Source of the DNA: Lytechinus variegatus | Taxonomy: Eukaryota > Echinodermata > Echinoidea > Temnopleuroida > Toxopneustidae | Assembly (NCBI RefSeq): GCF_018143015.1 | Contig: NC_054756.1 | Location: forward strand, 30,129,940 to 30,193,939 | DNA length: 64,000 nucleotides | Direction of reading: 5' to 3' | Part shown: positions 18,781 through 59,900 of the stretch, in pieces | How the letters are laid out: each line of letters begins with the position of its first letter | Numbering within the stretch: position 1 is the stretch's first letter | The notes under the pieces: generated by a model | Databases searched by the model: none | Seen by the model: the letters and a program-made list of their open reading frames with translations, nothing else | Told to the model about the DNA's origin: nothing | Program-made: the position numbers and the translations under genes

Positions 18781-18789
18781 TAATAAGGG

Positions 18790-19285
18790 GAGGTTTCTGT
18801 AATGAATGGCACTATAGACCTATCTCGATCCCTTACCTCTACCATCTGTAAGGTTGCAGAGCATATTGTACACAGCCAAATCATGCATCATCTGGATACA
18901 TGCAACCTCCTATCAAACTGTCAGTTTGGCTTTAGAAAGAGACGATCTTGTGAGTCGCAACTGTTATTAACAGTTCATGACCTTGTGACAGGACTCAGAG
19001 ACAAGCAACAGCTCGATGCCATTCTTCTTGACTTTTCAAAGGCCTTCGACCAAGTGCCTCATGAGCGTCTCCTTCTTAAACTTACTTTCATGGATAAAAG
19101 ACTTTCTGACAGGGCGTACAGGGCACGGTATACTTGATGGAAAGATGAGCAACACCATTTCTGTCACATCGGGCGTGCCCCAAGGTACAGTCCTCGGTCC
19201 GCTTCTGTTCTTGATTTTCATCAATGACCTAGCCAATGTTCAGGAATGGGAGAGGAAATGGCTCGTGTCGTTTAATGCTGACATG
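18790..19285 (+). pseudogene. LINE reverse-transcriptase relic, cut by a DNA transposon
   Basis: It contains Y-R-P-I-S, then LTSTICKVAEHIVHSQI and NCQFGFRKRRSCESQLL, then motif A (LLDFSKAFDQVPHERLL), then in another frame motif B (SGVPQGTVLGPLLFLIFIND) and WERKWLVSFNAD. At least two frame changes are present. The segment that should carry the catalytic [YF]ADD motif is absent, because INDL runs straight into NVQEWERKW. It is a dead CR1/Jockey-type fragment that ends where the hAT-like element starts at 19286. Confidence 0.85.
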
Positions 19286-31436: not shown

Positions 31437-31761
31437 TTACTGTCCACTGTCCAGGGAAGTCGCTCTCTCACGTCCCTCCTCTTACGTAATCACAAAGCTC
31501 AAACTTGATCAGGGAGCTAGTTGGGGGGGTTGGGGGTAATAAAGCCACGCCCCTCTACCTACCACGTAAGATCGTACTTCTGTGGCCGGGCGGGGTTACC
31601 GGTTCAACTAGATAAGAGTGCCGACGTCGTCAAGAACCGCTAGCCCGGAAAAGCCAAACTCTTCTTCTGTTCCTCGTTCTGGAATTAGCTGTGCTATTCT
31701 TCAGGATCTACCACAGGTTCGAACCTTAATTACTCTAAAAAGGAATCTTCACAACGTGGTC

Positions 31762-34700
31762 ATGTCTCAACACAAGTCAAAAAGAGCGAGAACAGATGAA
31801 AACAACGGGTCAAATGAATTCTTCCCAGGTAAGTTTCAGAATCAGGGTATAAATCTAGCTAACCCGATCGCACCGTGTGTTTGCTGTGTACGGTACATGT
31901 ACAGTAATAATTGATGCAAAAAATGACATTTGCTAACATTAACTGAAACATATGTACAAGGCATCAATAATAATTGTACTCTAAACAATAGGCAACCAGT
32001 TCACTTCTTTTCCTTGGTTCTATCAGTCTCAAAATCGATGAAAACTTTTATTTCTTCATGCGATAATAATTCACCGCCGATTTGAAAACATCACATTCGC
32101 AATTGCAAGTATCAGTGTTTTGAATCTTTAGAAATACATGATACATTAGGTTTATGAAATACGACAAAAGCTGTCAAGGGTACTGCGATCAAAATGGAAG
32201 CCAGACCTATTGAAGGTTCCCTTTTGAAAGGCAACAGACAAGCATATAGTGTTGACTTCGTGATTTAAATTACCCCCTTAATTCTCCTTCCATGCACCAA
32301 CAGTCGATCTTCAAGTCTTTTCTTTAATGGCCATTGATTACTGATAAACTCATTCAGCCTGCACCTCATGTGAGGGGAAATGGTCAATATCCTTGAGTCA
32401 TTTGTAAAGTCTGTGAAACAAATACATGAGGATAATGACAGGAAATGATTTGCAGACACTCATTTGAGGAATAGTTTACCTTTCTCAAATTTGGTTTCAG
32501 CATTAATTATTGTATTAATGTTATTATTATTGTTGTTAATCTTTATTAATATTATTATTATTGTTGTTGTTATATCATTATTATCATAATTTTTGTTTTT
32601 ATTATTATTAGTAGTACATTTCTAAATTCTTTATTGTTATTTGTTTATATGAAAGTAGGGCCTATATTCTTTGGGAGGTTCGATGGGGAGTAAAGTCTTT
32701 TAATTGTGCATGATCTGTTTACTGACAAATAGAAACAATATTATTTCCATTTAATGATTTCAAAGATACCTTGATAGGTATGTGTTGTGATGATTTATCT
32801 GACCATCACAATATTTTAATAGTAAAAAAATTACATCACAGAGAAAAGACAAATATAGTCTAAAAGGGCTATTCCACGGTTACTCACGTTACATTTGGAG
32901 ACACCTTGACTCATACTTGGAGCTGTAACTCCATTATTATTGATAGGAACTAAACATCTCCTTATCACAATAAAGTACACAGTCTGACTATCCTTTGTAT
33001 AAAAACAAAACTTGGGAAATTTTATTATGCTCCTGGCAAATCTTTGGAACGTGTCGGTTACTCACGTTACATGATTTGGACATGCATAAAATGAAAAGTC
33101 TCTTCATACAAGGCTTTTATGAAAGTTGATTATATCCATTTCAAAGAAGTATATTAGGGACACAAACTTTGTATATAATTAAAAAAATAAAGAACACATG
33201 GTTTTTACTTGGGGTGCAGATAATATGGTTACTCACGTTACGGTTACTCACGTTACATTTTGTCTATGTATGGTTAACAACACACGTCATTAAAAATTCA
33301 ATAATGTGTGTAAAATTCATTGCTAGGAACATCAAAAAGAGATTTTATACCAAAAATTGGAACAATTGGAGCTTTATTAGGGAGTAGGAGGGAAAAGTAT
33401 GATTTTGCTTACTAATTATGCATAAATTAGCATAATCACTTAATACCAATTTGCATGAAATAAATTACTGTATAGTATTGTAGATTATGTCCAAGACAAC
33501 CTGCGCGCAAATTTTCGGCGTGATCATGCGGCCAATGGCCGAGATCTCAAGGGGGGCCTGGGAGGCCCACCCCCCGGGCCATATCAACTCCCGAAATCCC
33601 CGGCCTAGATAGGGTTACAGGTATAAAGGGCATTCAATGTGTTGTTCGAACACTCTTTGAAGTCTGGTTAATCGAAACAAAGTCTTACTAATGCACTCTT
33701 GCATTGTGAATACTTCTACTAATATTCAATTTTTTTGTGATTGTATGACCACTGATATTTTGATGAACAAAGAGTCACATCAAAGAGGTGTACCCTCATT
33801 TTGCTTTTAATTAATCAAAAATAACTTCACAACTCAACATGAGACTTAAAACTTGACATCCCACAGAAAATGGTACCTAACTGAATAATTTTTACTGGTT
33901 ACTCACATTACATGATGGTTACTCACGTTACAGTTTTTCTTCATCATTTTTATAAAAAATTGTACTTTTTAATGATTTTGATAGTCATCACTGTGTCAAA
34001 GATTGTTTGAAGGAAGAGAATTTAAAATCCCACCAATTAACTGTGAAGAATTTTTCTCTCAGAAAACAAAGTCATTTTTTTTGGTTACTCACGTTACATC
34101 ACCTGAGCAGGTTGCAATATTCATTTTTGAATGAGTAATACAAATTTACTTGAAAAGCTGTTGTGTATTTTAAGTAATTTGACTTTTCTAAACTTCAGAA
34201 ATATATAAAGTGGTATGTTGTTTACAATAACAAAATGGTAATAAGGCATATTTCATTTTTCACTATTTTTCTTGTATTTTGGTACAGAATGGAAGACACA
34301 ACTTTTGACCATTTTTTTCCAAAGTATACATATGAAAATAAACTTTTTATTTCTTGTTCCTGAAACTATAATGTATGAAGGACTTAAAGTATTAAGAAAT
34401 TCAAGAAAATATTGAATTTGAATTTTTAAGCTCATGTCCACCAACCTGTGGAATTGCCCAAAAGGTTTTTATTTCCAAATGTCATTATGTTTTGGTGCTC
34501 TCAGACACTTGCTCCAGTGATAATAAATTTCCACAAACTAATCAAATGACTGACTTCAACCTTGTATTCAACACTTTACACTATCCTTAACATTACTCTA
34601 AACCTAACATAAAACCCTATTGCAACCCTAAACCTACATCTTAGAGGAAATAAAGCCTGGAGCGATTGTCGTAAGCTTGTGTCATGTCACTGTTCATCAA

Positions 34701-37700
34701 AACAGTTCTGTTCTCAGAAAATGACAAAAGCAGATTATGATATTGACAGACTTCTGAGATTTTTAATTAATTTTTATAAGTCAAATAAAAAAAAATCAAA
34801 CTGATTCTTGCAGTCTTAAAAGATTCAACTTCAACAGAGTCATCGGTAATTAATTCTTTCTTTCTCTCTCCCTTCATTTTCAGGCATTAACCAGATAAAG
34901 TACAAGCCAGATGCCAAACCAACTGATTTGCTGTGTTATAAACATTACAATGCAGATGAGGTATAAAGACAGTGGTTGTGTGAGCGGGAGTTATCTTACA
35001 TTGACTTAATTTTAGAACTTTACATTAGATCTAGGAACAAATGTTATTCTTTTCCCCATACTCTTCTATCTTTTGTTCTTGATCTTTCTTTCTCTCTCTC
35101 TTTCTTTGTCTAGATTTTTCCTCTTCCTCTCTCTTCCCTTCCCCCTCTTCTCTCTGTTAGTGTAGGATATTGCAGCTAAAGTCACAATCACAAACTTGTA
35201 CTGTACATACCAGTATTCATTGTAATATTTTGGCAGAAAAGATTACTTTGGTTTTACCATTAATTACAGTAAATATGCTGTTTGAAATTTTATACAAAAC
35301 TGTTTACTATGTCTATTTTAAAGTAGTTATGTAACAACCTCGCTTTAAGATTTTGAACACTACAATCCTTCGGCTTTCTCCTTGATAGGTCATTTTATTG
35401 ACTTGCCCAGGATTGTCCCTTAAATCATTTGGCGTGCTGCTTACCTCGCCAAACCTTCAAGTGGTTCCTATCTTTTAATTGACATATCGATCCCTACAAC
35501 TCATTTGCTACAATCATCTTGCATCATCGTAAGTCGTAACCCTTGTCTGATCAAATTATTCTTTTCTGCCTGTGTTCCTCTCTTCCGTGCTGCCATCAAT
35601 TCTTTTACTAATTTTTCATGCAAACAATTGTTAGTTTTAAAGTTGCCATAATGCATGATACATTATTTTGTTCTTATCAGGAGGTCCTTGGAAAGAGCAT
35701 GGCCGACTGGCTTCGGTTCTCTGTGTGTTATTGGCACACATTCAGGGGTGTAGGTCTGGACCCCTTTGGAGGACCAACTATCAGCAGACATTGGGATGAT
35801 GGTAAATATTCCACCCTATGCCCTGACCTTTAACACGAGTTCAGAATGCCACGCACATGAATTTCCATAAAGACCTCAACAGTTAATAGAAATACAAACT
35901 GTTTGCTTGTCCTTTATGGGGATCGAATCATGGTAATCTTTAAAAACTATTAATGAACTTGTGAGGATTTTAATTCTTTGTGCACTGGGCCATGAACCCC
36001 TCTGTGCTGAATTGTTTTCAGGGAGGGAAACAATGGATTGTTTGTTTAAATGCAGAGTTTGTACGCATGGAAAGGGTTAAATGTGAAAATCATGATGAAT
36101 TTCAAAATATCATTTACTTGAATTAATATACAATGGTTTGATTTATTTTGTATCAGTGAGTTCTCAACCCCTTGATATCTATATGTTTGGTATATCTATC
36201 ATTCTGTGTTTGTAGGTAGTGAAAGCTTAGAGAATGCCAAGAGACGATTAAGGGTAGCTTTTGAGTTCTTCACCAAACTAGGTATCAGATACTGGTCATT
36301 CCATGACAGGTTAGTTCAAATAATATTTACTGTGAACTTAATAATGCATTGAACAGTCTATATCCCTACAGAGATACTGGAATACTACTCACTGCAGTAG
36401 AGTATGTGGGAAAAAGTCAAGTAATTTGCACTTTTTTGATTAAAAATACTGTTAGATAACATGATTGTTTAAGAAATGGACTGACAATTATTCTTTGGAA
36501 ATCACAAGCCAAAGGGAACTGTTTCTTAAAAAATCTGCCGCATTAGATTTTTCAACTGGGCCCCTCGCTGACTTTTTACTTTTAAATATCACGCAAGACC
36601 AAATTTGTGATGCGCGGGTACATGGTTATAAAATAATGTACCATTATGTAAATTCATGTCAGATCCAAAACTGCTCAAAAACATGAATTCATGTACAAAT
36701 CCAATGAAAATTGTGAATTTAACCAAAGTTCATAAATGTATAATTATTTTTCCTTTCACTGATTAAACTAAATTAATTTTGTCTTGTTAATGATCAGAAT
36801 TAAGTCTGCAGCAATTTCATTAGAAAAAAAAATAAAAAAGTAAAAAAAAACAAGAAATACCGGTACATAAGAAATTATTTTTAAGAAAATTCCTAGGAAA
36901 AAATATTCACCCTTGAAGGCCAAGATCTCAGGGGAGGTGGGGGGCGGATTCTGCCCCTCCCCGGCTGTGAGATGGGCGCAAATAAACCGGCTCTGTTGAG
37001 CCATGTTACTGTGGTTGCTTAGCATGATTCATATTGATTGATTATACTCTCTTTAAGTCTTTATAATTGAAAGGAAATCATGATTAATATAATCACATAT
37101 AAATATCAGACTTATAAAATGCTACAATTACCGGACTATGGTATTATTTACATGTGCTCCAATAGCAATGTCTTTAATTGGAAGACTACGGTATTACATT
37201 GCATATACAGGTACATGAAACTAGTAAAAATAAAAGCACTTTAAAATGTTAGCTTAGATATAAAGACCCCCCCCTTCCCTGATAAGCAATCAGAACAGTA
37301 TCTCAGGCATTAAAAATCTAAGATTTCTACAAGTATGTCTAAGTTTTAGAGTAGACTTTATTCATGTATCTTGTAAAAAGTAATTATATTAATTTATTTC
37401 TACCCTCTATTTGATTTTGCTAATCCTACTGGATTGATATCACAGAGGTATGTTTGCATTATCTAACAAAGATTTATTTATTCTTTGTACATATACTCTC
37501 CAAGTAGCTCAGCAAATATTGTGTATTGGCTCAGCAATACATTTGGTTATCTGATTGTATAGATGACATGTACCTACATCTATACGCTGTACTTCTGATT
37601 CATCTGACAAAACTTGTACTAGAGCATTCTGCTACTGTATCAAGACATTTCATAGATTTTTATGAATACCCAAATGCTAAATAATTATGTCATTTTTTCA

Positions 37701-40700
37701 ATTCAATTCATTTTATTCAATCATTTAGAGATCAACAGACATTTACCTGAATGCACAATTATTGAAAATATAGTTTAAATGATTAGGTACACTCATAAAA
37801 GCAGAAGCTTGCTGAGTGGGACACCTATATGCTGCCATTAGTTCTTTTGATATAAAAATTTAAATGAATGAAAACTTGATCTAAAAGAAGACAATGTGGA
37901 GATAAATGGACTAAAATGTTTTTTCTGTGTTACCTAAAACTTTCAGAATTTGTTATTGATTGTTTTTAGTCAGAATATTTTATTGGTTATTGTAAAGATG
38001 TTGTTTTCTTCCTAATTGGCAGAGATATAGCACCAGAGGGCGCTACAATAGAAGAATCTAATCGCAATCTTGATGAGATTGTTGATCTTGCTCTGGAACT
38101 CCAGAATAAAACAGGAGTCAAGCTACTCTGGAACACTTGTAATCTGTTCTCACACAAAAGGTAATATGTGATGAAATTATTTTTGTAACATATTCAGGTG
38201 ACTCACTATGTAAGAAATGATTATTATCAAACAATGCTAGGCTGTATTGTTATATATTGGAAGTTTTTCTTCAAATGCATGTTCGCTCCTTGTTAATGTT
38301 ACCATTTTTTGTGTTTTGTTCTTTTGTTGAATTATGTATTTCTCTTGTACATGTAATCCCACATTTGTTATATGTACATGTATACCTTGTACCTTTCTGC
38401 TTACACAGAAGGTATCCTAGCTTATCTATTGTAAATTTGCTGGCATTAAAAAAATAAAGTATATTTGCGTGGAAAAAAAAGTGTATAGATTATTTTTAGA
38501 ATTTTATGCAACAGATATAAAACCCTCAATAGCCTCAGTTCCTATGTGTGCAGGCTTCATGTATGATTGCATAACAGTTGTGTAGTAGCAATATAAATAC
38601 ACTGTAATTGAATTAGCTGTGTTAATCCGGTTGTTTATCTAGCAGGTTTTTTTTTTCCTGAATTTAAATTTCATGATTGATGAAAGTGAGTCATATTTTA
38701 GAGCATTTTCCTGTGCTATAATATGCTTTTTACACTGCACTTTTTGTCAGATATTGGTGGGGTTAAGGGGGGGTCTTAGCCCCACCAATTTCCCGGGGTT
38801 AAGCTTAGCCCACTTCGTTTTCACACTATGTTTTAGCAAAGTGGGCTAGCACGGTACTATCTGGCCCTGCAAATAAGCAGGGTTAGCCGGCTTATTGTGG
38901 TGCTAGCACCACATTTGCGGTGCTAAGAGATGCAGTGTGAAAACGAAACAGGGCTAAGGAAAGTAGGGCTAAGCATCAACCAATCACAGTCCGGGGTTAA
39001 GGCATTAGCCACGGTTGAGCAGATAGTATGGGGTTAAGAAAGACAGTGTGAATCGAAAAAAAGATAGTATGGGGGTTAAGGATAGTCCGGGGATAAGGAT
39101 AGTTTGGGGTTAAGGAAATGCAATGTGAAAAGCATATTAGGGTGAGTGTTCTGCATTGAATTCATGAATGTGTCAATTATTGAATTATTGTGGATTCCCA
39201 TACAATCAATTTGCTATGAAAACACATTTGCATGAGAGCATACCAGGTCTGTATAGAGGCCATCAGCTGTTTATGATGAATATTTGGTCATTCATCTAGC
39301 CTGCTTGGCGTGTATTTACAAATTTTAAACTCAAAGTCTGACATAGAATTAGTACAATATAATCTGGAATGGGCAATAATCCCAATTTACTCCCCTGCTG
39401 TATAAGTATCCCTCAATTTGAAACATGTCGTTGACCATTTTCCTACAGTTGAATGTCACCCTCCAAAAATTGTTCTCACCTTATTTTAAAGATTCCATTA
39501 TTTTATACTCTGTGTAAATCAAGCTCTTTGTATGTATTAAGACTTCTAGAGTTATGCTCTCTGTCAATTGAATAAAGGATATCCTAATCAGTGACACAAT
39601 GCAAATACTTCACAGATAATGTGTTCTCAATGTACAGTTGTGCTCAAAAGTAATTTAGTAAACCCCACCATAAAATGCACTCCTCAATGCTGAGTGTTGA
39701 ATGTAGACAACACTACAATGTAGGCGAGCCCAGAGAAACAAACTTTTATTGAATGTAAGATTCAATCATCTAAATTCACTCCTAATCTGGCAAAACAGTT
39801 TACATATGTTCATGTTCAGGTCGGGTTATTGAGAACCCTGTAGATTTTTTAAAGAAATAGTTAAAAGCAAGTTGATGATGAAATGTGAAGCTATTTTATT
39901 TTGAGCTGCTGCTAGTGAATATTTTTATTTACAAAACCTCAAGAGAACTTCTTTGTAATTTGACTATAGATACATGAATGGAGCAGCCACCAACCCAGAT
40001 GCTCATGTTGTAGCATACGCTGCAGCAGCTGTCAAGAAAGGACTTGAGATTGGAAAGAAACTTGGTGGAGAAAACTTTGGTGAGTTCTTCATTCGTAGTT
40101 GTATGATTTGTTTTAAAGAGAGGGGAAATGAGAAGGAAGAAGAAAAGGAAGAAATACCAAACAGGAAAATGTTAATTATCATGATAAGAATAATACACAA
40201 ATAGCGGAATAGGCATGAGTGCAATGGTGTGAGATTTTGCATGAGGTGAAAGAAAGATGCTCTATTCAACGAGGCGTTAGCCGAGTTGAATAGAGTGTTT
40301 CTTTCTTTCACCGAATGCGAAATCTCGCACCATTGCACGAATAAGAATATTCGCTATTTGTGTTGTACAACGCCTCGGAATCTAGCGAAAATATGAAATA
40401 AACAAGAGTTTTTCCCTCCAGTAATCTATGAAAAGGGAGCAAAAATATTGAAAACAAAAAGCAAAATCCCACAAGCTGGGCCCACAAGCGCACATGATCT
40501 TGGACAGCATTGCGCATTTAGCCAGCGGGCTGTACGCGCATTGTCACCTTATTCAATGAAATCGCATTGTGACGTCACCTCCTAAAGCCGTGCAATGGTA
40601 CATTTTGGATGGTACGTCTTGTGTGCAACGGTACGAATGTGTGACATTCAGCCTCCCATTTGATCGCGTACAACAAGATAAGTAGGCGTTGTACAATAAA

Positions 40701-43700
40701 GAATAGGAAAAGTAATAATGAAATGTATTTAGAATAAGAATGAAAATAAGAATATAAAGAATATGAGAATATAATATTATAAGAGTATAAGAATAGAATA
40801 TAACATAACAGAATATTAGATTATACTACTCCAAATCAAATCACATGACATTCAGCGAATTGCACTATTGCATCCAAAATACACTATCCTGCACTCTGAC
40901 GTCAGAGTGCGGAATAGAGCAAGTTTTGGAATTATCTAGAATTTAGATCAAATATACATGTAGCATTCAGGGCAACTCAGTTACATGGGGGGGGCCCCGG
41001 GGGGCCAGTAAAATATTTTGCTGTACACACGCGTGACCAAAAAAACACGTTTAAAGGGGTGTTTTTTCAGTTTTGGACGCGGTCCGCGCTTGGACTCGTT
41101 AAGGGTATAAAAAACACAGATTTTCAAGAAAAAGGGTGGTTTTGAAAGACTGGTAAATGGTCAATCGCGGTGTCCAGCGTATTTAGGGTATGTTCTTTTT
41201 CCCCAAAAGCTTTCTTTAAAAAGACTAGCCAAACGTGTTTAGGGTATGTTTTTTTCCCCAAAGTTTTTTCCCCTGAGGTAATATTTTGGCGACAACTTGT
41301 TTAGGGGTCAAAATATGTAAATAAAGCCTGCGAAAAACTTGTTTAGGGGGTTATTTTTTACACAGAAAAAACTTGTTTAGGGGGTGTTTGGAAATTCCTT
41401 GGTCACGCATGTGTACAGCAATATATTTGACTGGCCCCCCCCTGGGGGGGTGTATAAAAAAAACAATGCAAGCATTCTTGTGTGTATAAAAAAAACAATA
41501 CAAGCATTCTTGTGCATAGAGGACCTAAATAATGAACTTTTTGCTCGACTCACCAAATGGATATACCGCACTCGGTCCTGGGGACCTCGGTGCAGTATAT
41601 CCATTGGCTCTTCTTACACATCATTCATTATTTGGCCCTGCATGCACGCACTTACATGCATTATTTACAAATGAAAAAGAAGAAGGAGGAGGAGGAGGAG
41701 ATTTCACATTTTCTTTTGGTTTTATTTGTAGTATTCTGGGGAGGAAGAGAGGGCTACCAAAGCCTACTCAATACTGACCTACAGGGAGAACTCTCTCACA
41801 TGGCTAACTTCTTTAAGATGGCTGTTAGTAAGTATATATTCACTAGATCAAGCCAGAATATAATGAATGAATATGTACCAATCATTTTGGAAACATTTAT
41901 CAATATTGCATTTTTTAATTAAGATAAAGATTATTATGAACATTTTATGTGTAAAGAAAGAGGGGTGCAATACGAGAATGATAATCGTCATATTAGATGA
42001 AGATGAATGCAGGTAATAAATAGGAGACAGAAGTAGTAAGTAGATAGATCAATGCATTGGTAGAAAGAGACAATGGCCCATATTCTGAAGTCAGGTTTAA
42101 CTTAGACCATGGTCTAACTCTGCTAAAATTATGGGAAGCCCTAAGTGTCAACATTTTTATCAAGTTGTATGCTTCTTAGGTTTACTGTGCTCTTTCCTGA
42201 TTCATCGATGGTGAAGACAATCATCTATTTATACTTCCTAGACAATTATGAATGATTTGAGAGCCAAATGAGCTGAAATGTATCTCTACTGTTATTTATT
42301 AAATGTAACAATTGGCTATCCATACTTAAGCAACATCTTTAAACCTAAGTTTAAGTTAAACCAAACTTCAGAATATGGGCCAATATGTTTTTGTATTGTT
42401 TTGCTACTTACTAGATAGATGTATGCTAATGATAGTGATGTGGAGATTATTTTATGTACGTCATAATGCTAGGACAGATTATTGTCAGGATGTACATTGT
42501 CTCACCCTGAAGTTAAACAGATCTCATTAAAATGTCAAATGTTATCAAATTCTTTTATAATGCTCTGTGGGATATGAATTTAATTTGAATGCAACACACG
42601 ATCAATGTTTTGGACAGAGTTTTAATATTTTGTCTTTAGTATATGATGTTTGACGTTAGTATTTTGAGGTCATTGAAATCTAAAGAGCTTTAAAGGTCAA
42701 ATATGATTTGTCTGTCTTGGAAACGAATCTCATGGCATGCACTAGCAAGCAGAGAAAATATGATTCTCAAGTCATCATTTAAAGGTCAAGTCCACCCCAG
42801 AAAAATGTTTATTTTGATAAATAGAGAAAAATCAAAGTAGCATAACGCTGAAAATTTAATCAAAATCGGATGTAAAATAAGAAAGTTACAAAAATTGAAA
42901 GTTTCACTTTGATTCAGTGACGTGGAAATGAGAGAGTTGATGATGTCCCTCACTTAATATTTCTTTCGCTTGTTTGAATTATACAATATTTCAATTTTTA
43001 CAGATTTGACAATAAGAACCAACTTGACAACACCACAAAATGTTAAAACAATGGTAATAACACATGTTCGGGGAGGAATAAAAATTGGAAAATTGGAATA
43101 TTTCATGTAATAAATATAAAAGTAATAGTGAGTGTGTGATGTCACCAGTCTCCTCATTTGCATACCGACCAGGATGTGAAAATTACTGTTTTGTGAAATT
43201 AAGCGAAAATTAAAATTTTGTAACTGGTAATATGTTACATACATCCGATTTTGATAAATTTTCAGTGTTATGCTTGTGGGATTTTTCTCTTTTTAGTCAA
43301 ATCAACTTTTTGTTGGGGTGGGTGTGTCCTCTACATGTAAATATGTTGTTTTATTGTAGAAAATTGACCTATATGTATGGTGTGCATTTTTGTGACATCA
43401 CTGATTTTTATCGAGAATTTGTGGGATATTATTTTTCTTTTTAACAGAATACAAGAATGAGATTGGATTTACTGGACAGCTTTTGATTGAACCCAAACCT
43501 AAAGAACCTACCAAACACCAATATGATTATGGTAAATATGCTTGATATCTTGTTTTAGAGTTTTAAATGTTAGAATTTAATTTTAAATCTCTTAAAATCC
43601 ATATTTCATTGTTCGAAATAGCACCAGAAATGAAATACTCAGAAAATTTGTTTTGCCCAATTGATCTTGGGCCCGGCAGCCACTGTGCAGCACCAGATCG

Positions 43701-46700
43701 ACGGGGCTCTATCCCTTTAATTGTTGAACACCAAACGGTAGCAGCAACTCCAATAGCGTCTTTTGGTCTGACGCGGCCGGAGTTTGAACCCCTGAACTCC
43801 TGGTTGGGAGACGGACACTCTACCAACTGAATTATTGTCCTTTAGGAAACATTTGTCTAAAGCCTAAGTGGGATGTAAAGCTAGTTTGTCCATATTCATG
43901 TATTTTGATATATTTCCATGATGCTTTCATCATATTTTATGAAATTTTTGTGATATGTTTATTATCCATATATTTTAATAATAATAATAATGCAGTTCTG
44001 TATAGCGCATATCACATTAGGTCACAACGTCCCTATGCGCTTCCAAAGGACTTGAATATTATTACCCTGGCTTTAGCCCCGCAGCCTTTTTACAGCGCGG
44101 TGGTATTTCAAGGAATAAATTCCTTCCAGATACCCATTCACCTCATCCGGGTTGAGTGCAGCACAATGTGGATGAATTTCTTGCTGGAGGAAATTACGCC
44201 ATGGCTGGGATTCGAACCCATGACCCTCTGTTTCAAAGACAGAAGACTAATCCACTGGGCCACAACGCTCCATATTTTGATATCATGTAGATAATTGTTC
44301 ATATTTGGATTCATTATATGGTTCTTCTGCATTTGTACCCTTTTCATCATATTTACCTTTTATAGAGATTCAGTTTATGTTTAAACATGTATTAATGAAT
44401 ATAACAAAGGTCAGATTTGGATGGAGGTGCTGGTCCACTCTCATATTTTATGATATTATTCAGTCATTGATAGTGAGATGATTTATTTTTGTTATTATTT
44501 TTTTTAGATGCAATGACTGTGATCGGTTTCTTGGAGCACTTTGATCTTGAAAATGATTTCAAACTGAACATTGAACCAAACCATACCATGTTAGCAGGAC
44601 ATGCCTATGAACATGATATTGTTATGGCTTCTGCGTAAGTATGCTTCTTTAATATCCCCCCCCCAGTATTCTAGTTTGAGAAATCTCACCCCGGTCAAAT
44701 CTTCATTCAGGTGCAAACATTGCCCCTACCATTGAGTTCTACTGTTATGTAGTATGTATTTAACTTCATGTTATCCTTTCAGCCATTCACCTTCACTTGT
44801 TTACAAACTCCCCCAATGTCATCTAAGAATTCCCCAAAACTCATTACCATTTAACTCCTAAACACTGACCGTAACAGACCAACCCTCAGTGACGTCAGCT
44901 AACTTCAAGGAACAGAAGTTCTAAGAAGTATGACTCACACTTCCAGCCCCAGTCACTTGCACAGAGCATCACCACACCCCTTATACCAGAGAAAGTTTGA
45001 TAGGGGTTACCTGTAGACACCAATCAGATCAAGTTTAGATCTCTCCCACCTTAAATAGTTACACCCCTAAAACTGATGATATAGATAAGACTTCTTGATT
45101 ATTAGAGATATAATACTAGACCCACACTCATCCATATAGACTGACTAACGTCAAGACTTAGACGTCTATCCAATATTATTTTAACTTCATTCCAAATCTT
45201 AATCTTAGACTTCAAAACTCTCATATTCATCGTCCTATTCACAACACTACACCATCCCATTCTGCTCAGGCTGTATACATCCACTACTGATTCGACACAA
45301 TTAATATTCTTTCAATCGATGTAGATTTCACTCTAAAAGCCATTGCATACAAGCATAAATTATTCTCTGCTCAGATGGAAAATTTGATATGTGTTTGGTT
45401 AGATTATTTCTGAGATGTTGTCATTGGTACTGACTTGTAATGATTTTGAAAATACAGGTCACCTTTCATTAGTCAACCTGAATCACAGGCCCATTTAAAG
45501 CTACTGAAATCTTTCAATTGATTGGCTGCTAGTAATCTTAGTATAGAAGTTGTGCATTAGTTATTATAATAAATCTTAATGAAATAGAACCCAGATCAAA
45601 ACATTTAATGTATCGCTTCTTTTTTTTCCTGATAAATTCAAACAGATATCTTTGATCCCAAATAACATAAGTACTGACAAGTGTTTTTGGATGTTATTAC
45701 CAACAATTTGAAGTAAACTGTTTTATGTCTGTAATATTCTTTTAGTCTTCGTATGCTTGGATCTATTGATGCTAATACTGGATCACCTGATCTTGGTTGG
45801 GATACTGATCAGTTTCCTATGGATATCAGAGGAGCTGCTGCTATATGCAAGGTAACTACCAGACAATTATTAGTCTTTAATACATCAACAACTTACACTG
45901 TAAATCACTGATATATCAAAAATATTACAAACCTATGAGTAGAAAGCTTGGGCAATTGAAGCAACTGTATAGCATGAAAAAAAGAAGAGAATGAATACAG
46001 TTGTAGGTCCAGTATTTTATGATGATGGTGATGGTGATGGTGATGATGATGATGATGGTGATTATGATGATAATGATGATGATGATGGTGATGGTGATGA
46101 CTATGATGATGATGAAGATGATAATGATGATTGTGATGATGGTGATGATGATGATGGTGATGATGATGGTGATGATGATTATGATGATGATGGTGATGAT
46201 GATGATGGTGATGATGATGATGATGATTATGATGATAATGATGGTTATGGTGATGGTGATGATTATTATGATGATGATAATGACCTTAATGATGATGGTG
46301 GTGATGATGATGATGATAGTTATGGTGCTGGTGATGGTGATTATCAATTTGATGATACATTGAGTTTTAATGATAACGGATGATTGGGATGATGGTGAAC
46401 ATCTTTACAGAGATTAGAATGATGAAGAGGAGAACCTTGGGCTTTAAGTAGACTGTTGGTTTAATTTTGATGTTGGTATAAAATTATTTCTGAATGAATT
46501 GATTTGACTCCTTACAGTGCATTATAGATCAAGGTGGTTTAGCTCCTGGTGGTTTAAACTTTGATGCTAAGGTACGTCGTGAATCTACAGACTTAGCAGA
46601 TATGTTCTATGCTCACATTGGAGCAATGGATTCCTTTGCTAGAGGACTACGAATTGCTGCTAAGCTCATCACCGATGGACATCTTCAAAAGATGGTAGAG

Positions 46701-48387
46701 GTGAGGTGCAAGGATTCTTAAGAATATTTTTCAAAAGATATATTTGAATTTACCTTTAAAGGGATGGTCTGGGCTGAAAATATATCTTAATATGTAGAGT
46801 AGAATTCACTGAGCAAAATGCCGAAAATTTCATCAAAATCGGAGAACAAATAATAAAGTTATTGAAGTTTGAAGTTTAGCTATACAGTCGTCGTGAATAT
46901 TCATTAGATGGGCTGATGATGTCACATCCCCACTTTTCTTTTTGTATGTTAGATAAGATCTTAATTTTGTCAATATTTCATACTTGTGTGAATAATATGT
47001 TTCCTTTATAATGAAATAAGTTGCAGCAATAAATATCTAATGTACTAAATCAGTTGTCAATCCAATTTTTCTAGTTCTCGGAGGAAAAAAATTGGATAAA
47101 CCTAATTTCATATAATAAAATACAAAAGAGCAAGTGGGGATGTGACATTATCAGCCCACCTAATGAATATTCATGATGACTGTTTTCACAAAATATTGCT
47201 AAACTTTAAAATTCAATAACTTTGTTATTGTTATTTGATATCCGATTTTGATGAATTTTTCTGCATTTTGCTCAGTGAATTCTACTCTATTTATTAAGCT
47301 ATGAATACTTTCAGCCCGGACCATCCCTTTAAATTCATTTATGAAAACTTCTTTTCTCATATTACATTAAAGCCTTTGGCAGTGGCATACCTTGAAAACA
47401 TTGTCAGGAGTGACAAAGATCAACACCATTAGTTGTAGCACTTTCTTGAATTATCTTTGTAAATATTAACTCCTTGTGTGCTGGGCCATGAGCCCCTCTG
47501 TGCTGAATTATGTTCAGGGAAGGAAACAATGGATCTTTGTTTGAGCATGAAATGTGAAGTTCGCGCGGCACTGAGTGTTCTTTCGTGCGAAGTACACATT
47601 GAAAGGGTTAAAGACTTTATTCCAGACACTACTGTATATGCAGAGGTCCATTTCAACAAGCAACATAGTATACATAAAGACACGCACACATTTCTGAAAT
47701 AAACAGAGAACATAGAATAATCTACAAAGAAAGGAACAGGGAAGATGCTATCAGATTGCTATTTGATAATACTAAAAATAAACAAAGGAAAATACAAAAG
47801 GGCGTATTGTCAGATAAGTACATGTATTATGAACATGTGGCAAGGTAAATAATTTATTTAATTTACAAAAAAAAAACTTATTACATGTAAGTCCATGACT
47901 TATAAAAAGTTCTTTTCATTTGATATTTAGGATCGTTATTCCAGCTTTACTCATGGCCTTGGACTGAAAATAGCAGAAGGAACGGCTACTCTTCAGGAAT
48001 GTGAGGTAGGATACGAGGGGAATGAAACCTTTGGAATAAGTAGGCTTGTGTTGAAATTTTTTTTTAAAGAAACAGATCAACGACAGTGAGAAAAATCAAA
48101 CAAACAATGAGAAAGTTATGAGCATTTGAATATTACAATCACTAATGCTATGGAGATCCTCCTATTGACAATGCGACAAGGAAGTTTGATGTCACATGTG
48201 AACAACTTTCCCTCTGATGGACTGTAAAATAACCCCAAAATGTCTCTTCGTTTTTAATATAGAGTATATTTGTAATATTCCCTCGTTTTCTTTCCTTTTC
48301 CAGGCATTCATCAAGAAAGCTGGAGAGCCTTCTGTCACCTCGGGTCAACAGGAGAAATATGAATCGCTTGTCAATCGCTATGTTTAG
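31762..48387 (+). CDS. xylA: Xylose isomerase, class II, 13 exons, complete
   Basis: This is a metal-dependent D-xylose/D-xylulose isomerase, probably cytosolic because no signal peptide is seen. Coding exons: 31762-31828, 34884-34960, 35681-35801, 36216-36309, 38023-38160, 39970-40079, 41732-41827, 43448-43531, 44508-44634, 45746-45851, 46518-46700, 47931-48005 and 48304-48387. All borders are GT-AG, every phase matches, and the total is 1362 bases: 453 residues plus TAG. Catalytic His118 is in YWSFHDRD, and Glu249 and Lys251 are in [18 protein letters not shown]. Glu285 and His288 are in [12 protein letters not shown], Asp313 in GSIDAN, Asp324 and Asp326 in GWDTDQFP, and Asp356 in GGLNFDAK. 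Each sits 17 residues after its E. coli counterpart, so spacing is kept throughout. Length fits class II enzymes (about 440). The ATG at 31762 is the first in its open frame, and the N-terminus KSKRAR is basic. The symbol is the family name, not an official gene name. Confidence 0.97.
32861..34465. mobile_element. 1.6-kb terminal-inverted-repeat element with seven internal 16-mers
   Basis: The left end, about TAAAAGGGCTATTCCACGG, is mirrored by the right end CTGTGGAATTGCCCAAAAGG. Inside, GGTTACTCACGTTAC(A) occurs at 32878, 33056, 33227, 33242, 33917 and 34081, and once with a single change (CACATTACA) at 33897, all in the same orientation. Another MITE fragment (33398-33620) is nested in it. 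No transposase frame is visible. It lies in intron 1 of the xylose isomerase gene. Confidence 0.65.
33398..33620. mobile_element. piggyBac-like MITE fragment, copy 2 (right part)
   Basis: It shares ATGCATAAATTAGCATAAT, GCGCGCAAATTTTCGGCG, GGCCGAGATCTCA and CCCGGCCTAGATAGGGTTA with the end of the copy at 60429-61150. The left half is missing. Confidence 0.6.
35974..36076. mobile_element. Short TTAA-flanked MITE, family C, copy 1
   Basis: TTAA lies at 35970-35973 and 36077-36080. The ends TTCTTTGTGCACTGGGCC and CGCATGGAAAGGG match the second copy at 47470-47607. It lies in intron 3 of the xylose isomerase gene. Confidence 0.6.
36540..36985. mobile_element. piggyBac-like MITE fragment, copy 3
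   Basis: It shares GCTGACTTTTTACTTTTAA, GTTCATAAATGTATAATTAT and CCAAGATCTCAGGGG with the copies at 950-1721 and 60429-61150. The ends are eroded. It lies in intron 4 of the xylose isomerase gene. Confidence 0.6.
38723..39135. mobile_element. Fold-back MITE rich in GGGGTTAAG words
   Basis: The left end ATGCTTTTTACACTGCA is mirrored by TGCAATGTGAAAAGCAT. The interior repeats GGGGTTAAG and GGATAAGG words many times, plus AGTGTGAAAACGAAAC. It lies in intron 5 of the xylose isomerase gene. Confidence 0.6.
40190..40369. repeat. Long imperfect hairpin in intron 6 of the xylose isomerase gene
   Basis: ACACAAATAGCGGAATA, GTGCAATGGTGTGAGA and GGTGAAAGAAAGATGCTCTA on the left pair with the reverse-ordered partners on the right (TAGAGTGTTTCTTTCTTTCA, TCTCGCACCATTGCAC, TATTCGCTATTTGTGT). 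The loop is only a few bases near TTAGCC. It is probably a fold-back transposon. Confidence 0.65.
40891..40910. promoter_or_regulatory. Perfect 20-bp palindrome with a CRE core
   Basis: GCACTCTGACGTCAGAGTGC equals its own reverse complement and contains TGACGTCA, the full cAMP-response-element consensus. It is intronic and next to fold-back elements, so a regulatory role is only a possibility. Confidence 0.4.
40983..41455. mobile_element. Fold-back MITE with G/C-run ends
   Basis: GGGGGGCCAGTAAAATATTT and TGTACACACGCGTGACCAA at the left are mirrored at the right by TTGGTCACGCATGTGTACA and TTGACTGGCCCCCC. The interior repeats (A/C)TTGTTTAGGGG(T/G) words. It lies in intron 6 of the xylose isomerase gene. 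Confidence 0.65.
41452..41517. repeat. Tandem duplication of about 33 bp
   Basis: TGTATAAAAAAAACAATGCA plus AGCATTCTTGTG is repeated once with a single-base difference, directly after a MITE end. Confidence 0.8.
41520..41640. repeat. Near-perfect hairpin in intron 6
   Basis: CCAAATGGATATACCGCACT then CGGTCC (41551-41576) pairs with GGACCTCGGTGCAGTATATC then CATTGG, leaving a 3-base loop. Weaker outer pairing is AAATAATGAAC with ATTCATTATTT. It is probably a very small fold-back element. Confidence 0.65.
42075..42381. mobile_element. Fold-back MITE with GGCCCATATTCTGAAGT ends
   Basis: The left arm GGCCCATATTCTGAAGT and following AGGTTTAACTTA is mirrored by TAAGTTAAACC and ACTTCAGAATATGGGCC. 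AAT flanks both ends. It lies in intron 7 of the xylose isomerase gene. Confidence 0.7.
42781..43330. mobile_element. MITE, family B, copy 2
   Basis: It begins AAAGGTCAAGTCCACCCCAG and ends with the eroded mirror TGTTGGGGTGGGTGTGTCCTC. Inner arms AAAATCGGATGTAAAATAAG and CATCCGATTTTGATAAATTT pair. It is the same family as 9779-10361. It lies in intron 7. Confidence 0.75.
43590..43840 (-). mobile_element. tRNA-derived SINE, family A, copy 2
   Basis: On the minus strand it reads TTCAGTTGGTAGAGTGTCCG, then a B box GGGGTTCAAACTC, GTCAGACCAAAAGACG, GGCTGCCGGGCCCAAGATCA, and the tail TATTTCGAACAATGAAATAT. It matches copy 1 at 2880-3145 throughout. It lies in intron 8 of the xylose isomerase gene, antisense to it. 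Confidence 0.75.
43978..44271 (-). mobile_element. tRNA-derived SINE with an ATT-repeat tail
   Basis: The minus-strand head GTGGCCCAGTGGATTAGTCT and B box GGGTTCGAATCCC are tRNA-like. The body ends GCGCTATACAGAACTGCATT and then (ATT)n. Possible imperfect target duplications are near ATATTTTA and ATATTTTGA. It differs in body from family A and lies in the same intron, antisense to the gene. Confidence 0.8.
45487..45592. repeat. Short fold-back-like repeat in intron 9
   Basis: It shares the ATTGGCTG(C/A)TAGTAA theme and overall layout with 11982-12120. The ends are GGCCCATTTAAAGC and ATGAAATAGAACCC. Confidence 0.35.
46018..46395. repeat. (GAT)n microsatellite in intron 10
   Basis: About 370 bases of GAT units with GGT, TAT and AAT variants. 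The Asp-rich, Met-rich and Ile-rich frames through it are artefacts of the 3-base period. Confidence 0.95.
46760..47328. mobile_element. Fold-back MITE with AGGGATGGTC ends
   Basis: AGGGATGGTCTGGGCTGAAA at the left is mirrored by TTTCAGCCCGGACCATCCCT at the right. AGAATTCACTGAGCAAAATG and ATTTCATCAAAATCGG pair with their mirrors further in. TTAA lies on each side (46756-46759, 47329-47332), though a TA or TTTAAA duplication is equally readable. It lies in intron 11 of the xylose isomerase gene. Confidence 0.75.
47470..47607. mobile_element. Short TTAA-flanked MITE, family C, copy 2
   Basis: TTAA lies at 47466-47469 and 47608-47611. CTCCTTGTGTGCTGGGCCAT and CACATTGAAAGGG match copy 1 at 35974-36076. 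The open frames across it are not genes. Confidence 0.6.
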
Positions 48388-50998
48388 ATCTCGTCAGAGT
48401 GCTTGCATTCCTGCTTGCCGCCCATTTATTGGTTTGGCCTTATAACTTTTGATGCAGAAATTGTACAAATCATTAGTATATTTTGTTCAATAATAATGGT
48501 TAATGTGCTTATTTTCTTCACTTTATGTTATTTTTGAAATGTCCAAAAAACATTTCCAGTATAAATCATGTCTGATGGTAGATATACCTGCAATTGGCAT
48601 AGAGAATTGTTTGATGCGGTGTGATGGATATATGTTTGTGGATTATATGTATATATGCAATTAGTATTCATTTTGCATGAATTGATTGAAATTAATTATG
48701 GACTTAACATTTTTTTTTCTTTTCCCATTGTTTGTGTGCTCATTGTTAAAGCAAAGCATTGAAGAATTTTGTGCGAGCTTCTTTTTTTTAACATAATGTG
48801 TAAGTTTACCATTAATTTGAATCTCAAAACAATATTTGATTACGACTGTATTTTGATATTGAGATAATTGCAGATATTCACAATCAGTTATATCGATCAT
48901 TTATTTTATTGATAATTGAACTGTCATGATTGCATTCATGGAAATTTAAAAAAATGAATAAATTCCTCTTTTGTCATATTTGCATTCGTGGAAACTTAAT
49001 AAAATGAATAGATCAATTCCTATCAATTATGATACTTGATATAAATGATTATTAAACTGTATATCGCAATTTAATTTAAAAAAATTACATCTATATGTGA
49101 AATGTGGGTCAAATATCCATATAATATATTAAATTAGTCTTTTGAGTTATAGCTATATCAAAGCAAAAGTTGGTATTGACTTTGTTTTCTGTAAGACATG
49201 CATTATTGAAAAACTCTGCATCTGGTGCTATATGTTTAGATAGATTAATCTGATATCTCATATGTGCCCAGTCCTGAGAAGGGGTCATTAACTCTCCTTA
49301 CCCTTTACCAATAGGAGTTATAGAATTTACTAGTCAACAGGTTTACAATGAATTATATACCATGTTATATTACCTCCGAAAGCTCAGGTTGAAATGTATG
49401 GGATACTCGATTGATGGTAACAAATAGAGTGTGAAATAATTATTTTCTTCCAAGGTAACATATGCTTTAGCCTGTCTACATTGTTGGTAAAGGATCATTA
49501 ATATGTTAATATGAACTAGAGTCAAGTATCATTTAACATTTTCCATATTACAAAAGTGTTGAAGGTATGGAATGTGTTTAAAAAAACATGAGAATTTAAA
49601 TTTTGCAATTTTATCATCTGCGAGAGTTTGAATGTGCCATCTAGCGCCCTCTCTTGACAATGTTTTTATTTGAAACAGCTCTTTGAACACTTACTAGTGC
49701 TTTTCCAATTTAGTAATTGAATATAGAATACTGAAGTGATGACATCAGTTGCCATGGTATCATGGAATGAAAGCGTGTTTCTCATAGGAGAAAATGGTTG
49801 CTATCGGAATGATCGCTTGCAACCTATTTTTTAGACGAGCCAAAATGTAAGCAGACGATCATCAGGTGCGGCTCTGTTTAGAACCAGCCCACCATGATAC
49901 CATGGCAACTGACATCACGCTTCGGTACTTTATTAAAAAGATACTGACAATAATCATATCCTGACATTCAGTGTTTGAGTGGGGTTTTATGTAAATAAGA
50001 TATAAACAGGCACCTGATTGAATCATGTTTTGATGTAAAATTGCTGGTAAATTTAATCCCAATAACACATTTTATCTGATATCATTGTTATCATGGCTGT
50101 TTTAATTCAAGCACATTCAATATTAATCTAGGAATGAGTATCAGTGACACTGATATTTTGGAGATTTACCAAAACTAGAGATAGGCATAAAGTGAGAATT
50201 GTTTGCTTAAAGTAATCTTTTCATATCTGTTAGAGATCTTTAGATAATAGATATGTCTGTAAAATTTGTATTATTCTTCTTAGTGATTATGAAAGCTTGT
50301 TTTTAACCAATGCTTCCTCATTTGTATAAATTTGATTTGTATCACCATGAGGAAGGTTATACTGTGAGTGTGAAACTGCCTTAGTGTAATCATGGACTAG
50401 GTCCATGGTGTAATAGAGATAAATTACTTTGTGTGTGAGGGGGGGGGGGGCTTTTCCATCAAACTTTTAGATATTACCTTTTTCCCTAATGGCTTTCAAA
50501 AAAAGTTCAAATTTCTGAGTGTAATTGATTTATATATTTAAAAAAAGGAAATGTCCTTCAATTTTTTATGATTGAATCTTGCCTTATCAACTCAAAGAAA
50601 TGATTTTACATAATATGTAAAATCATTTATTATTATTTTATGCAATCCAGATATTCTAGAATTCGTGCAGTTGGTGCACCTAAAAATCCCTTTTATACTC
50701 TATACATTATTTTTCTATACATGTATTTCATTCTAGTGTTCATGATAGCCTGTTTTATTAATCTCTTACCTTTTACGTCAGAATTTTCTATGCATTGGTT
50801 TTGTATAAACAAGAAGTGAATTAGTAATAGTAAATTAACTGTCAAACAGTCAAAATTCTATGTGTGTGCATTGGTAAAAGTAGGTATATTAAATTCAGTC
50901 ATCTAACATCAAAATATAATTCTAACTGTAATTGTTTGTTTTGAGTTCATTTGTTGTTTAAATGAATTTATATTTTCCTTGGCATTATTTTATGAATA
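48388..50998 (+). other. 3'UTR of xylose isomerase and convergent intergenic DNA
   Basis: Candidate poly(A) signals AATAAA lie at 48957-48962 and 48998-49003, in two tandem copies of a short GCATTC(A/G)TGGAAA segment. T/G-rich sequence follows. Beyond about 49.1 kb I see no exon. A pair of inverted segments near 49740-49925 (ATGGTATCATGG, TGATACCATGGCAACTGACA) looks like a small fold-back. Confidence 0.5.
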
Positions 50999-51009: not shown

Positions 51010-52260
51010 TTTGTCTCATCTCTTGTCTTACTCTGTCTCTCATCTCTGTATTACTCTGTCTCTCATATCTGTATTACTCTGTCTCTCATCTCTTGTCTTA
51101 CTCTGTCTCTCATCTCTGTATTACTCTGTCTCTCATCTCTGTATTACTCTGTCTCTCATCTCTTGTCTTACTCTGTCTCTCATCTCTGTATTACTCTGTC
51201 TCTCATCCCTTGTCTTACTCTGTCTCTCATCCCTTGTCTTACTCTGTCATTCTCTTGTCTTACTGTCTCTCATCTCTGTATTACTCTGTCTCTCATATCT
51301 GTATTACTCTGTCTCTCATCTCTGTATTACTCTGTCTCTCATATCTGTATTACTCTGTCTCTCATCTCTTGTCTTAGTCTGTCTCTCATATCTGTATTAC
51401 TCTGTCTCTCTTGTCTTACTCTGTCTCATCTCTGTATTACTCAGTTTCTCATCCCCTGTCTTACTGTCTCTCATCCCTTGTCTTACTCTGTCATTCTCTT
51501 GTCTTACTGTCTCTCATCTCTGTATTACTCTGTCTCTCATCTCTGTATTACTCTGTCTCTCATCTCTGTATTACTCTGTCTCTCATCCCTTGTCTTACTC
51601 TGTCTCTCATCCCTTGTCTTACTCTGTCATTCTCTTGTCTTACTGTCTCTCATCTCTGTATTACTCTGTCTCTCTGTATTACTCTGTCTCTCTGTATTAC
51701 TCTGTCTCTCATCCCTTGTCTTACTCTGTCTCTCATCCCTTGTCTTACTCTGTCATTCTCTTGTCTTACTGTCTCTCATCTCTGTATTACTCTGTCTCTC
51801 TGTATTACTCTGTCTCTCTGTATTACTCTGTCTCTCATCTCTGTATAACTCCGTCTCTCATCCCCTGTCTTACTCTGTCTCTCATCTCTGTATAACTCCG
51901 TCTCTCATCTCTGTATAACTCCGTCTCTCATCCCCTGTCTTACTCTGTCTCTCATCTCTGTATTACTCTGTCTCTCATCCCTTGTCTTACTCTGTCTCTC
52001 ATCCCTTGTCTTACTCTGTCTCTCATCCCTTGTCTTACTCTGTCTCTCATCCCTTGTCTTACTCTGTCTCTCATCCCTTGTCTTACTCTGTCTCTCATCC
52101 CTTGTCTTACTCTGTCTCTCATCCCTTGTCTTACTCTGTCTCTCATCCCTTGTCTTACTCTGTCATTCTCTTGTCTTACTGTCTCTCATCTCTGTATTAC
52201 TCTATCTCTCATATCTGTTTTACTCTGTCTCTCATCTCACTCTGTCTTTCATCTCGTCTG
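51010..52260. repeat. 23/24-bp tandem array (minisatellite), about 1.25 kb
   Basis: Two main unit types: a 23-mer TCTCATCTCTGTATTACTCT+GTC and a 24-mer TCTCATCCCTTGTCTTACTC+TGTC, with shorter variants. Units at about 51970-52160 are eight nearly identical 24-mers, so that part was amplified last. Higher-order blocks recur (for example the ...CATTCTCTTGTCTTACTGTC segment at several places). The long Leu/Ser/Cys-rich frames on plus and the RDRVRQGM repeats on minus follow from the period. Confidence 0.95.
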
Positions 52261-56910: not shown

Positions 56911-59900
56911 TCATTTCTGATTGGTCTTTCTTCTCTTGTAAGCAGGGATAGGCCCATAGTACATCTCCGCTGTTATAAAGAAAAGAAAAATATGACAGTT
57001 TAAACACAAATAAATGCCAGTTGAAGGAACACGCTAAAAATGGGTTCGAAGATAATTCTATCAAATGTCCACCAAACTAGTCGTATCTATTTCATAAAAC
57101 ATGTGTGCCAAAATATTTTTGAAGAAAATGTGCAACTGAGAATTTGAAAAAAAAAACAAGCGTGGCATTCCAGCCTGATATTGTTTGTTTACCAGCAAAT
57201 AGTACACTGTCCCACATGTGTTAATTTGTGTTGGTGATCTGCAGTGTGGTCATTTTTTTTCAGCTTTATTCCACAATTTCACAGGATTAGGTTTACAAAC
57301 CAGGTCTAGATCAACCATAATATGGTGACAAAAATTTTGATTTTAAAGACTTACTCATGAAATAAGTGTTTGCAGAACTATAGACACTGAAATGCTAAAT
57401 CGTACCTCATACTAACATAATTAGGCCATGACTGTTAATTTGTTGAAATTATAGAGAAACACATCAATGAAAAGCAAAAGCTTTATTATGTACAACTTTT
57501 TAAGAAAAAAGTTCATGATTTTTTAAGGGATTTATTTTGTGACGTCACATGTCAGCTGTACCCACATATTCTGCACAATTCCATAATAAATTACCATATG
57601 AAAAAAAATTGTTTCCCCTTTTTTTCAAGTTAATAAAAATAATGTCATGTATAAAAGCAAGGATGTGTTTAGCTGTCAGGCTGCGATGCATTCAATATTT
57701 CATAAAACAAGTTTCAAGCAGGTTTTTTTTTGTAAGAAATTAAAACTTATGAAGAGGATTCCTGTACATGTAAGTACAAAATCTGTTCAAATTGAATATT
57801 CTTCATCCTTCCTTAAGCTATTCAATTTGATGGACAAAAATTGTAAGTTAGAATGTCCAGTTAATTTAATAAAAAAGATAGAAACAATGGACAATAACCG
57901 AACAACAACAAATGAAATAATCATTTATCAACAATGAGGAAAAATAAACAATGTTAAACATTGCGCTGAGTCATGAAAAAAAGAGAATGGCTCTGTAAAA
58001 CTGAAATGGCTCCCTGAAAAAAAAAGGTGGTTCATGAACTAGGCCCAAGTCGTGTCCGAATGTTTTTGTTCCGGAATACGCTGGTGTTGCGCCGGTCACA
58101 ATCCGGTATCCCAATAAATGAATTCACAGACAGGGAAGTACAAAAAAGTCATAGATTTAAGAATATTGATTTCATTTCTAAACAAACAAAAAAAACGAGA
58201 AAAATATCATGAGAAGACAGGAAAAAACTTGCCAATGTTTACGTGGCAATCTTGTTCTCTTTGTTAGTAGCTCAGCTACGAGACGCATAGAGTCTGCCCC
58301 CTCTATATGCGTCTCAAACATGTAGCTTAGCTACTAATAACTTAGAGAACAAGATAGCCTCATAAACATTGGCAATTTTTTCTCCATCTTCTCAAATTAT
58401 TTTTCTCGGTGGTCACCTGAAATGTAACTAAGAAACCTGGTATATTATTGGTAAGACTGAATAAAACGTACTCGATAATCATGTAAGATATTCAGAAGAA
58501 GAAAACGTTAAACTATATGTTATGTATTACCTTTTTTATTGGAATACCGGAAAGGAAAAAATAAAACTGGAACCTGCACACATCGGACGGATTCTGGTAT
58601 TCCATCCGTTTCGACCCAGACCTACATGAACCATGAGTCTTGTCTAATATCACAATTGAAAAATATGCTATATGATCTTTTGACCTTATCATCCTCATGA
58701 ACACATGTGTCGTATTACCCAATGGTTATTTGTACAAAAGTAAACACAATTTATGCAGAAATAAAGAAATAAGAGCATTTGAACAACTTGACCTTTTGAC
58801 CCCTAGATGACCATTGACCCATCACCCTCATGGACACATATGTTATATTCCCCAAGGATCATGTAAACCAAGTGTCCACATAATCCAGAACTAAAGAAAT
58901 AAGAGCAAGTTGAACAAAAATTCTCACATAATCATTTGACCTTTTGACCCCTAGAAGACCTTTGACCCCATCACCCTCATGGACACACAAGTAGTATTAC
59001 CCTAGGATAACATGTACCAAGTGTCAACATAATTGACGCACAAATAAAGAAATGACAGCAAGCTGAACAATAACCAACATTTTTGTAAGATATAACCTCA
59101 TATCATTTGACCTTTTGACTCCTACATGACCTTTGACCCCATTACCCTCATGGACACACATGTGGTATTAATACCAAAGGATCATATGTATCAAGTATAA
59201 AAATAAATTATGCAGAAGAAAAGAAATGAGAGCAAGTTTAACAAAAACTTAAACATTTTGGAACAGACTAACAGACCAACAGTACTCGGTCTCTACTAAA
59301 CTTTGTTGCAGGCGAGACAAAAGGTAATTTTAACACTGCAAAATAGAACTTTATCCTATACCAATGAAAGTAAAATTACCTTTTGCATTGTGTCTCATAC
59401 TCCTTTTCCGTGTAGTCACACCATCCTGATCAGACATCCCATCACCATCTTTATCAGAAGTAGAAACTAAAGATCCACTTGAGCTTCTGGTTCTCGTTCC
59501 CATTGGACCACCTTCTACACCTGGTGTGGTGGCCGCCCCTGGAGACTTTCGACCAGACCGCCTTGTCCTAATGCTTGGAGAAGTATCCTCGGTAGTTGGT
59601 TCGGACAGGTGTGATTTAGGCGTTTCTGAACGTGAGCTTGTAGAATCTGTGTCCTCATGGTCTGGAAGTGGCACTTCCTTAAGTATTAAACCCTCACTGG
59701 ATGATGCTGTATCTTTGGCTCCAGGAAGCTGTATCTCTGGTGCTTTGGCAGATTCCTCAGACATCTCAAGGGATGTAGGTTTTGGAGTGTCAAATGGTGT
59801 CTTTGAATCATCTTTGTCTTTGCTTTCTGATGATAAGGTAGGTATTTCAGGGGTTCCACTACCTTGCACAGAGGTGGATGCTTTGGATTGAGTGCTCTCT

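Follow-up and report, generated by a model that had tools for sequence, protein, structure and literature searches.

Animal xylose isomerases are already in print, from a tunicate and from molluscs. In the available portion of PMC5591498, the Ciona intestinalis enzyme was functionally expressed in yeast, as the one chordate entry among 69 enzymes tested. The available text of PMC4436767 places enzymes active in yeast in three branches, one of which is that of higher eukaryotes (Ciona, Arabidopsis). Both excerpts (PMC5591498, PMC4436767) describe an animal (chordate) enzyme functional in S. cerevisiae; it comes from a tunicate, not an echinoderm, and is likened to the protein studied here by family name and description. 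Molluscan xylose isomerase-like proteins share the same family name. In the accessible part of PMC12357810, a CdS-precipitation experiment with scallop midgut-gland extract, the protein of Mizuhopecten yessoensis (XP_021350524.1, 51.1 kDa) obtained the top LC-MS/MS score with 41.3% coverage, and the authors suspected that this match was contamination from adjacent bands. A table entry for a xylose isomerase-like protein of the snail Pomacea canaliculata (XP_025110989.1) appears in the portion of PMC8533556 at hand, and that of PMC10142993 contains a Crassostrea gigas xylose isomerase-like entry in an octopus ink proteome, with peptides derived in silico. These oyster, scallop and snail proteins come from protostomes and are known here from excerpts of proteomics reports only.

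No sea-urchin xylose isomerase was treated in the titles and abstract openings found under sea urchin, Strongylocentrotus and echinoderm. The sections obtained of PMC4772301 do not treat one either, a word search of the available text of the ctenophore HGT paper PMC6005172 found no mention of xylose, and the excerpt of PMC6011409 contains nothing on xylose isomerase. The preliminary description of this DNA had called animal copies rarely discussed, which is too strong a wording given the Ciona enzyme active in yeast and the published mollusc proteins. With such enzymes reported before, surprise at the present gene is justified only in part. Xylose isomerases have precedents in animals; the sea-urchin gene adds a member to a known kind and overturns nothing known.

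The window, by which we mean the whole 64,000-nucleotide stretch of DNA that was analyzed, contains a xylose isomerase gene of 13 exons on the plus strand, running from 31762-31828 to 48304-48387. The gene was rebuilt from the window DNA with the following parts:

31762..31828, plus strand: coding part of exon 1 with the start codon, encoding 22 residues
34884..34960, plus strand: exon 2, from the spliced-frame rebuild
35681..35801, plus strand: exon 3, carrying Trp66 and Phe77
36216..36309, plus strand: exon 4, carrying the catalytic His118
38023..38160, plus strand: exon 5, carrying Asp121 and Thr158
39970..40079, plus strand: exon 6, from the spliced-frame rebuild
41732..41827, plus strand: exon 7, carrying Trp205
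43448..43531, plus strand: exon 8, carrying the metal ligand Glu249 and Lys251
44508..44634, plus strand: exon 9, carrying the metal ligands Glu285 and His288
45746..45851, plus strand: exon 10, carrying the metal ligands Asp313, Asp324 and Asp326
46518..46700, plus strand: exon 11, carrying the metal ligand Asp356
47931..48005, plus strand: exon 12, from the spliced-frame rebuild
48304..48387, plus strand: exon 13 including the TAG stop, from the spliced-frame rebuild
48957..49003, plus strand: two AATAAA polyadenylation-like signals (48957 and 48998), a motif match only, about 0.6 kb past the stop

Splicing gave a coding sequence of 1362 nt, in which 453 codons free of stops precede the TAG. 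All 12 introns were GT-AG, with lengths from 298 to 3055 bp, and GC content was 42.7% in exons vs 33.8% in introns. The start ATG of exon 1 has a purine at -3, and the exon 1 frame holds no other ATG between this codon and the preceding upstream stop. The rebuild returned the same coordinates, length and exon count as the preliminary description, which had reported 13 exons and a frame closing at 453 codons. As far as DNA can tell, this confirmed a real, intact gene for a predicted xylose isomerase.

Several other features of the window were recorded. Upstream of the gene, 18787-19134 on the plus strand encodes a reverse transcriptase fragment (PF00078, E 3.4e-10) of a retroelement. Within intron 1, the 15-mer GGTTACTCACGTTAC is repeated across 32880-34110, in single copies and, at 33227-33256, as two copies in tandem. 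Just 3' of the gene, a 24 bp unit is repeated about 54 times in a minisatellite at 51014-52238. On the minus strand, a Ser/Pro/Gln-rich open frame of 950 aa (61150-63999) runs to the window end and a further frame of 202 aa occupies 59354-59959; neither has a Pfam match, and together they are possibly a gene for a large regulatory protein.

The window protein matched the XylA model TIGR02630 at 654.6 bits (cut-off 533.25), with residues 20-453 covering positions 1-435 of the 435-position model. A full-length match of this score built from 13 exons cannot be explained by chance. TIGR02631 (xylA_Arthro), which we take to represent the class I type, scored only 104.8 bits against a cut-off of 447, and the closest solved structures were class II enzymes (1a0d, 498.9 bits; 1a0e, 487.5 bits). 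By these scores the protein falls in class II, with its longer N-terminal part, and not in class I. The preliminary description had placed all catalytic and metal-binding residues at a constant offset of +17, and this held at every position tested: 14/14 active-site and metal-site residues (catalytic His and Asp; Glu, His and Asp ligands) were kept at the E. coli number + 17, with the customary E. coli numbering as the reference. The same 14 functional columns were invariant across all 46 aligned enzymes. Four residues of the window protein (K30, D32, D37 and T289) differ from columns that are otherwise at least 97% one residue. Position 289 adjoins the metal ligand His288 and is Thr in the window protein and Ala in 44 of the 45 other rows. 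Family and residues together support the gene as encoding a class II D-xylose isomerase, with isomerase activity predicted, and the protein is probably cytosolic. A search of the genome with the Pfam TIM-barrel profile PF01261 gave three matches, none at the xylose isomerase gene; they sit on contigs C10 and C11 and were absent from the protein search with the xylose isomerase itself. The exons of the gene may be too short for this profile to detect.

Copy number was examined across the 869.6 Mb assembly of 33 contigs. The protein search gave 13 matches, every one an exon of this gene on contig C17, which ruled out a multi-copy family. Two elements with inverted repeats were delimited within the introns:

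42776..43337, unstranded: second inverted-repeat element, in intron 7, with arms of 83 nt that are 77% complementary
46755..47335, unstranded: palindromic MITE-like element in intron 11, with arms of 75 nt that are 89% complementary and ends set by eye

In all, 31700-48500 holds seven inverted-repeat pairs of at least 30 nt, three of them within the intron 11 element. A DNA search of the genome with the latter (46755-47335) gave 6320 candidates; scores were obtained for 40, the window copy among them. The 39 other scored copies were 86-89% identical (better orientation) and lay on 16 contigs. Introns had been described as transposon-laden, and the inverted repeats and the multi-copy element bear this out in part, with genome copies established for the intron 11 element only. 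Bindin is a sea-urchin sperm protein. The Pfam Bindin model scored four matches above its cut-off, distributed over two C13 loci with a best E of 4.0e-66, and the 14 genomes searched as controls, each from a bacterium or an archaeon, gave none. The two bindin loci identify the host of the gene as a sea urchin.

These results bear directly on whether the locus could come from contaminating bacteria or from a bacterial gene inserted recently. Its closest relatives in the trees described below are indeed bacterial. Against this stand the 12 canonical introns, the genome-wide repeat inside intron 11, a position 30.1 Mb along a 31.2 Mb contig (the window spans 30.13-30.19 Mb of C17) and an identity of at most 62% to any bacterium sampled. 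Contamination is excluded because the intron 11 element recurs on many contigs, and introns, host repeats and chromosome position together refute this explanation, to which we assign next to no probability. The earlier claim of a long-resident nuclear gene was thus upheld by the 12 introns, the host repeat and the single C17 locus.

Relatives were sought in genomes representing 84,980 species of bacteria and archaea. Six short stretches of the window protein served as seed peptides, an approach that can miss lineages. Relatives were encoded by 222 stretches, and the best 80 of the 222 were taken on; the best named matches among these 80 came from two MAGs, one of Chitinivibrionales (61%) and one of Fibrobacteres (57%). 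Phylum-wide searches covered the phyla of two matches. In the phylum of the Fibrobacteres MAG, 17 of 150 genomes matched at E 1e-3, and in six of the 17 a match reached 60% identity or more. In that of a Planctomycetes MAG, 66 of 392 genomes had a match at the set threshold of E 1e-150, the best at 57%. The Fibrobacterota search also returned a 57% identical xylose isomerase stretch with two in-frame TGA codons (L112, G090:C51:269-1261), reflecting either decay or recoding. A scan of viral contigs as a source gave three pattern matches, none encoding a relative.

Thinning the 80 loci at 80% identity left 27; these, four sequences from PDB and the window protein formed a 32-row tree. Here, the window protein joined L004 and L005 (98/95). 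Adding 14 proteins from the 150-genome Fibrobacterota search gave a 46-row tree, from which animal and database plant sequences were left out. In this tree the window protein grouped with seven Fibrobacterota rows (L004, L005, L094, L095, L097, L098 and L100, the last incomplete at 361 residues; 98/97). These seven are 58.6-61.9% identical to the window protein and form one clade with it, but their genes are intronless whereas the window gene has 12 introns. The branch of the window protein is long (0.61 in the 46-row tree), and its placement within the group has no firm branching order. Only five of the 14 added rows fell inside the group; the other nine lay elsewhere, so xylA evidently moves between bacteria and the name of any donor is weak. 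As far as these sequences go, the tree indicates the nearest bacterial lineage, not whether transfer was direct. The preliminary description had held that a position inside a bacterial clade with no other metazoan relatives would count against its reading. The protein does sit in a bacterial clade, that of the Fibrobacterota, but the tree was built without other animals, and metazoan relatives have been published.

A plant enzyme, its sequence approximate and used as a lead only, fell inside the same group (9 rows, 97/96); with this sequence, pairing of animal and plant was not recovered, nor was it rejected (p-AU 0.38). A close relationship to the enzyme of the fungus Piromyces was rejected. 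The Piromyces and Bacteroides enzymes (5yn3, 4xkm) are class II and have the 14 functional residues in common with the window protein, but they are about 51% identical to it and pair with each other in a distant, separate clade (100/100). By this placement, the fungal (Piromyces) gene has a different origin from the window gene.

Short peptides allowed a limited comparison with the oyster entry, as far as its partial source goes. One residue separates the in-silico peptide FSVCFWHTFR from the corresponding window decapeptide, and the peptide FCCLYIFNK has no evident counterpart in the window protein when read by eye. Motifs were counted over 98 non-animal proteins (the 80 loci, the 14 Fibrobacterota-search proteins and the four PDB sequences). 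WHTFR, common to the oyster peptide and the window, occurred in five of the 98, all in the tree group of the window protein, and FSVC[FY]WHTFR in one. ENFVFWGGR, common to the window and another oyster peptide, occurred in seven, all from outside that group. The oyster and window enzymes may belong to one type, although motifs this short do not amount to proof.

The genome also points to a kinase acting after the isomerase. The FGGY_C profile picked up a near-identical pair of exons on C3, spaced about 2 Mb from each other:

G000:C3:43639054 (L135): xylulose-kinase-like exon, FGGY_C match
G000:C3:45654987 (L136): xylulose-kinase-like exon, FGGY_C match

The only PDB match of the stretch common to both was human xylulose kinase (4bc2, 6.2e-17), and the evidence for XYLB in the genome consists of this one exon type. 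Their near-identity reflects either a recent duplication or assembly redundancy. A genome search with TIGR01312 (XylB) gave nothing above its cut-off and two lower matches, L092 and L093. The only PDB match of L092 was xylulose kinase 2itm (2.8e-06); L092 and L093 presumably resemble sedoheptulokinase-type and FGGY-type kinases, and on this likeness they were not counted as XYLB. In bacteria, L004, the nearest named homologue, adjoins a kinase with XylB as its best model (306.3 bits, below the cut-off of 380.25), which fits an origin in a xylose pathway. GH10 xylanase had no match in the genome at E 1e-3, which speaks against a complete pathway of xylan digestion encoded by the urchin itself; xylose would then come from other enzymes, gut microbes or proteoglycan turnover. 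Given the XYLB-type exon, conversion of D-xylose to D-xylulose and on to xylulose-5-phosphate is the likely route in the urchin.

Taken whole, the best explanation, which we consider probable, is a single-copy nuclear D-xylose isomerase serving a dietary xylose route and of ancient bacterial xylA origin. The enzyme would use divalent metal ions to isomerize D-xylose to D-xylulose, an XYLB-type kinase of the urchin itself would phosphorylate D-xylulose to xylulose-5-phosphate, and this product would enter the pentose phosphate pathway. The diet would probably be the main source of D-xylose, through algal or plant xylan and oligosaccharides that gut microbes largely break open. Ultimately, the gene would go back to a bacterial xylA like those that some Fibrobacterota have today, and its 12 introns together with relatives in tunicates and molluscs would place the acquisition long ago. 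A digestive role for algal or plant pentoses, as suggested in the preliminary description, is plausible but unproven, and the glucose/fructose exchange it also raised found no specific support.

The source of the xylose could instead be the animal itself. Xylose is a constituent of proteoglycan linkers, and an enzyme mainly salvaging D-xylose from degraded xylosyl-serine linkers and O-xylosylated EGF repeats would be in keeping with the missing GH10 xylanase and the xylulose kinase exon. Vertebrates make proteoglycans too, yet they are not known to carry a xylose isomerase gene. The occurrence of the scallop protein in the digestive gland, as given in the excerpt cited above, also fits diet better, and salvage as the main role appears unlikely to us. 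A still less probable reading, which we would be very surprised to see borne out, is a pseudogene, or an enzyme with an altered substrate (e.g., glucose/fructose exchange) or a non-catalytic role. The long branch in the tree and Thr289 beside His288 point in this direction. The 453 codons free of stops and frameshifts and the complete set of 14 functional residues argue against it, and class II enzymes can isomerize glucose, usually less well than xylose.

The clean single-copy gene model belongs to a group for which good laboratory tools exist, and this makes the unsettled role of animal xylose isomerases, be it in diet, use of gut-microbe products or proteoglycan salvage, directly testable. 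The gene also anchors the question of a common bacterial source for the animal and plant copies. Tentatively, and with more doubt than conviction, we suggest that animal, and perhaps plant, xylose isomerases may stem from a Fibrobacterota-type xylA acquired once in the distant past. Sea urchins, tunicates and molluscs would have kept the gene, and vertebrates and other lineages would have lost it. If so, some animals would have been left able to channel D-xylose directly into the pentose phosphate pathway.
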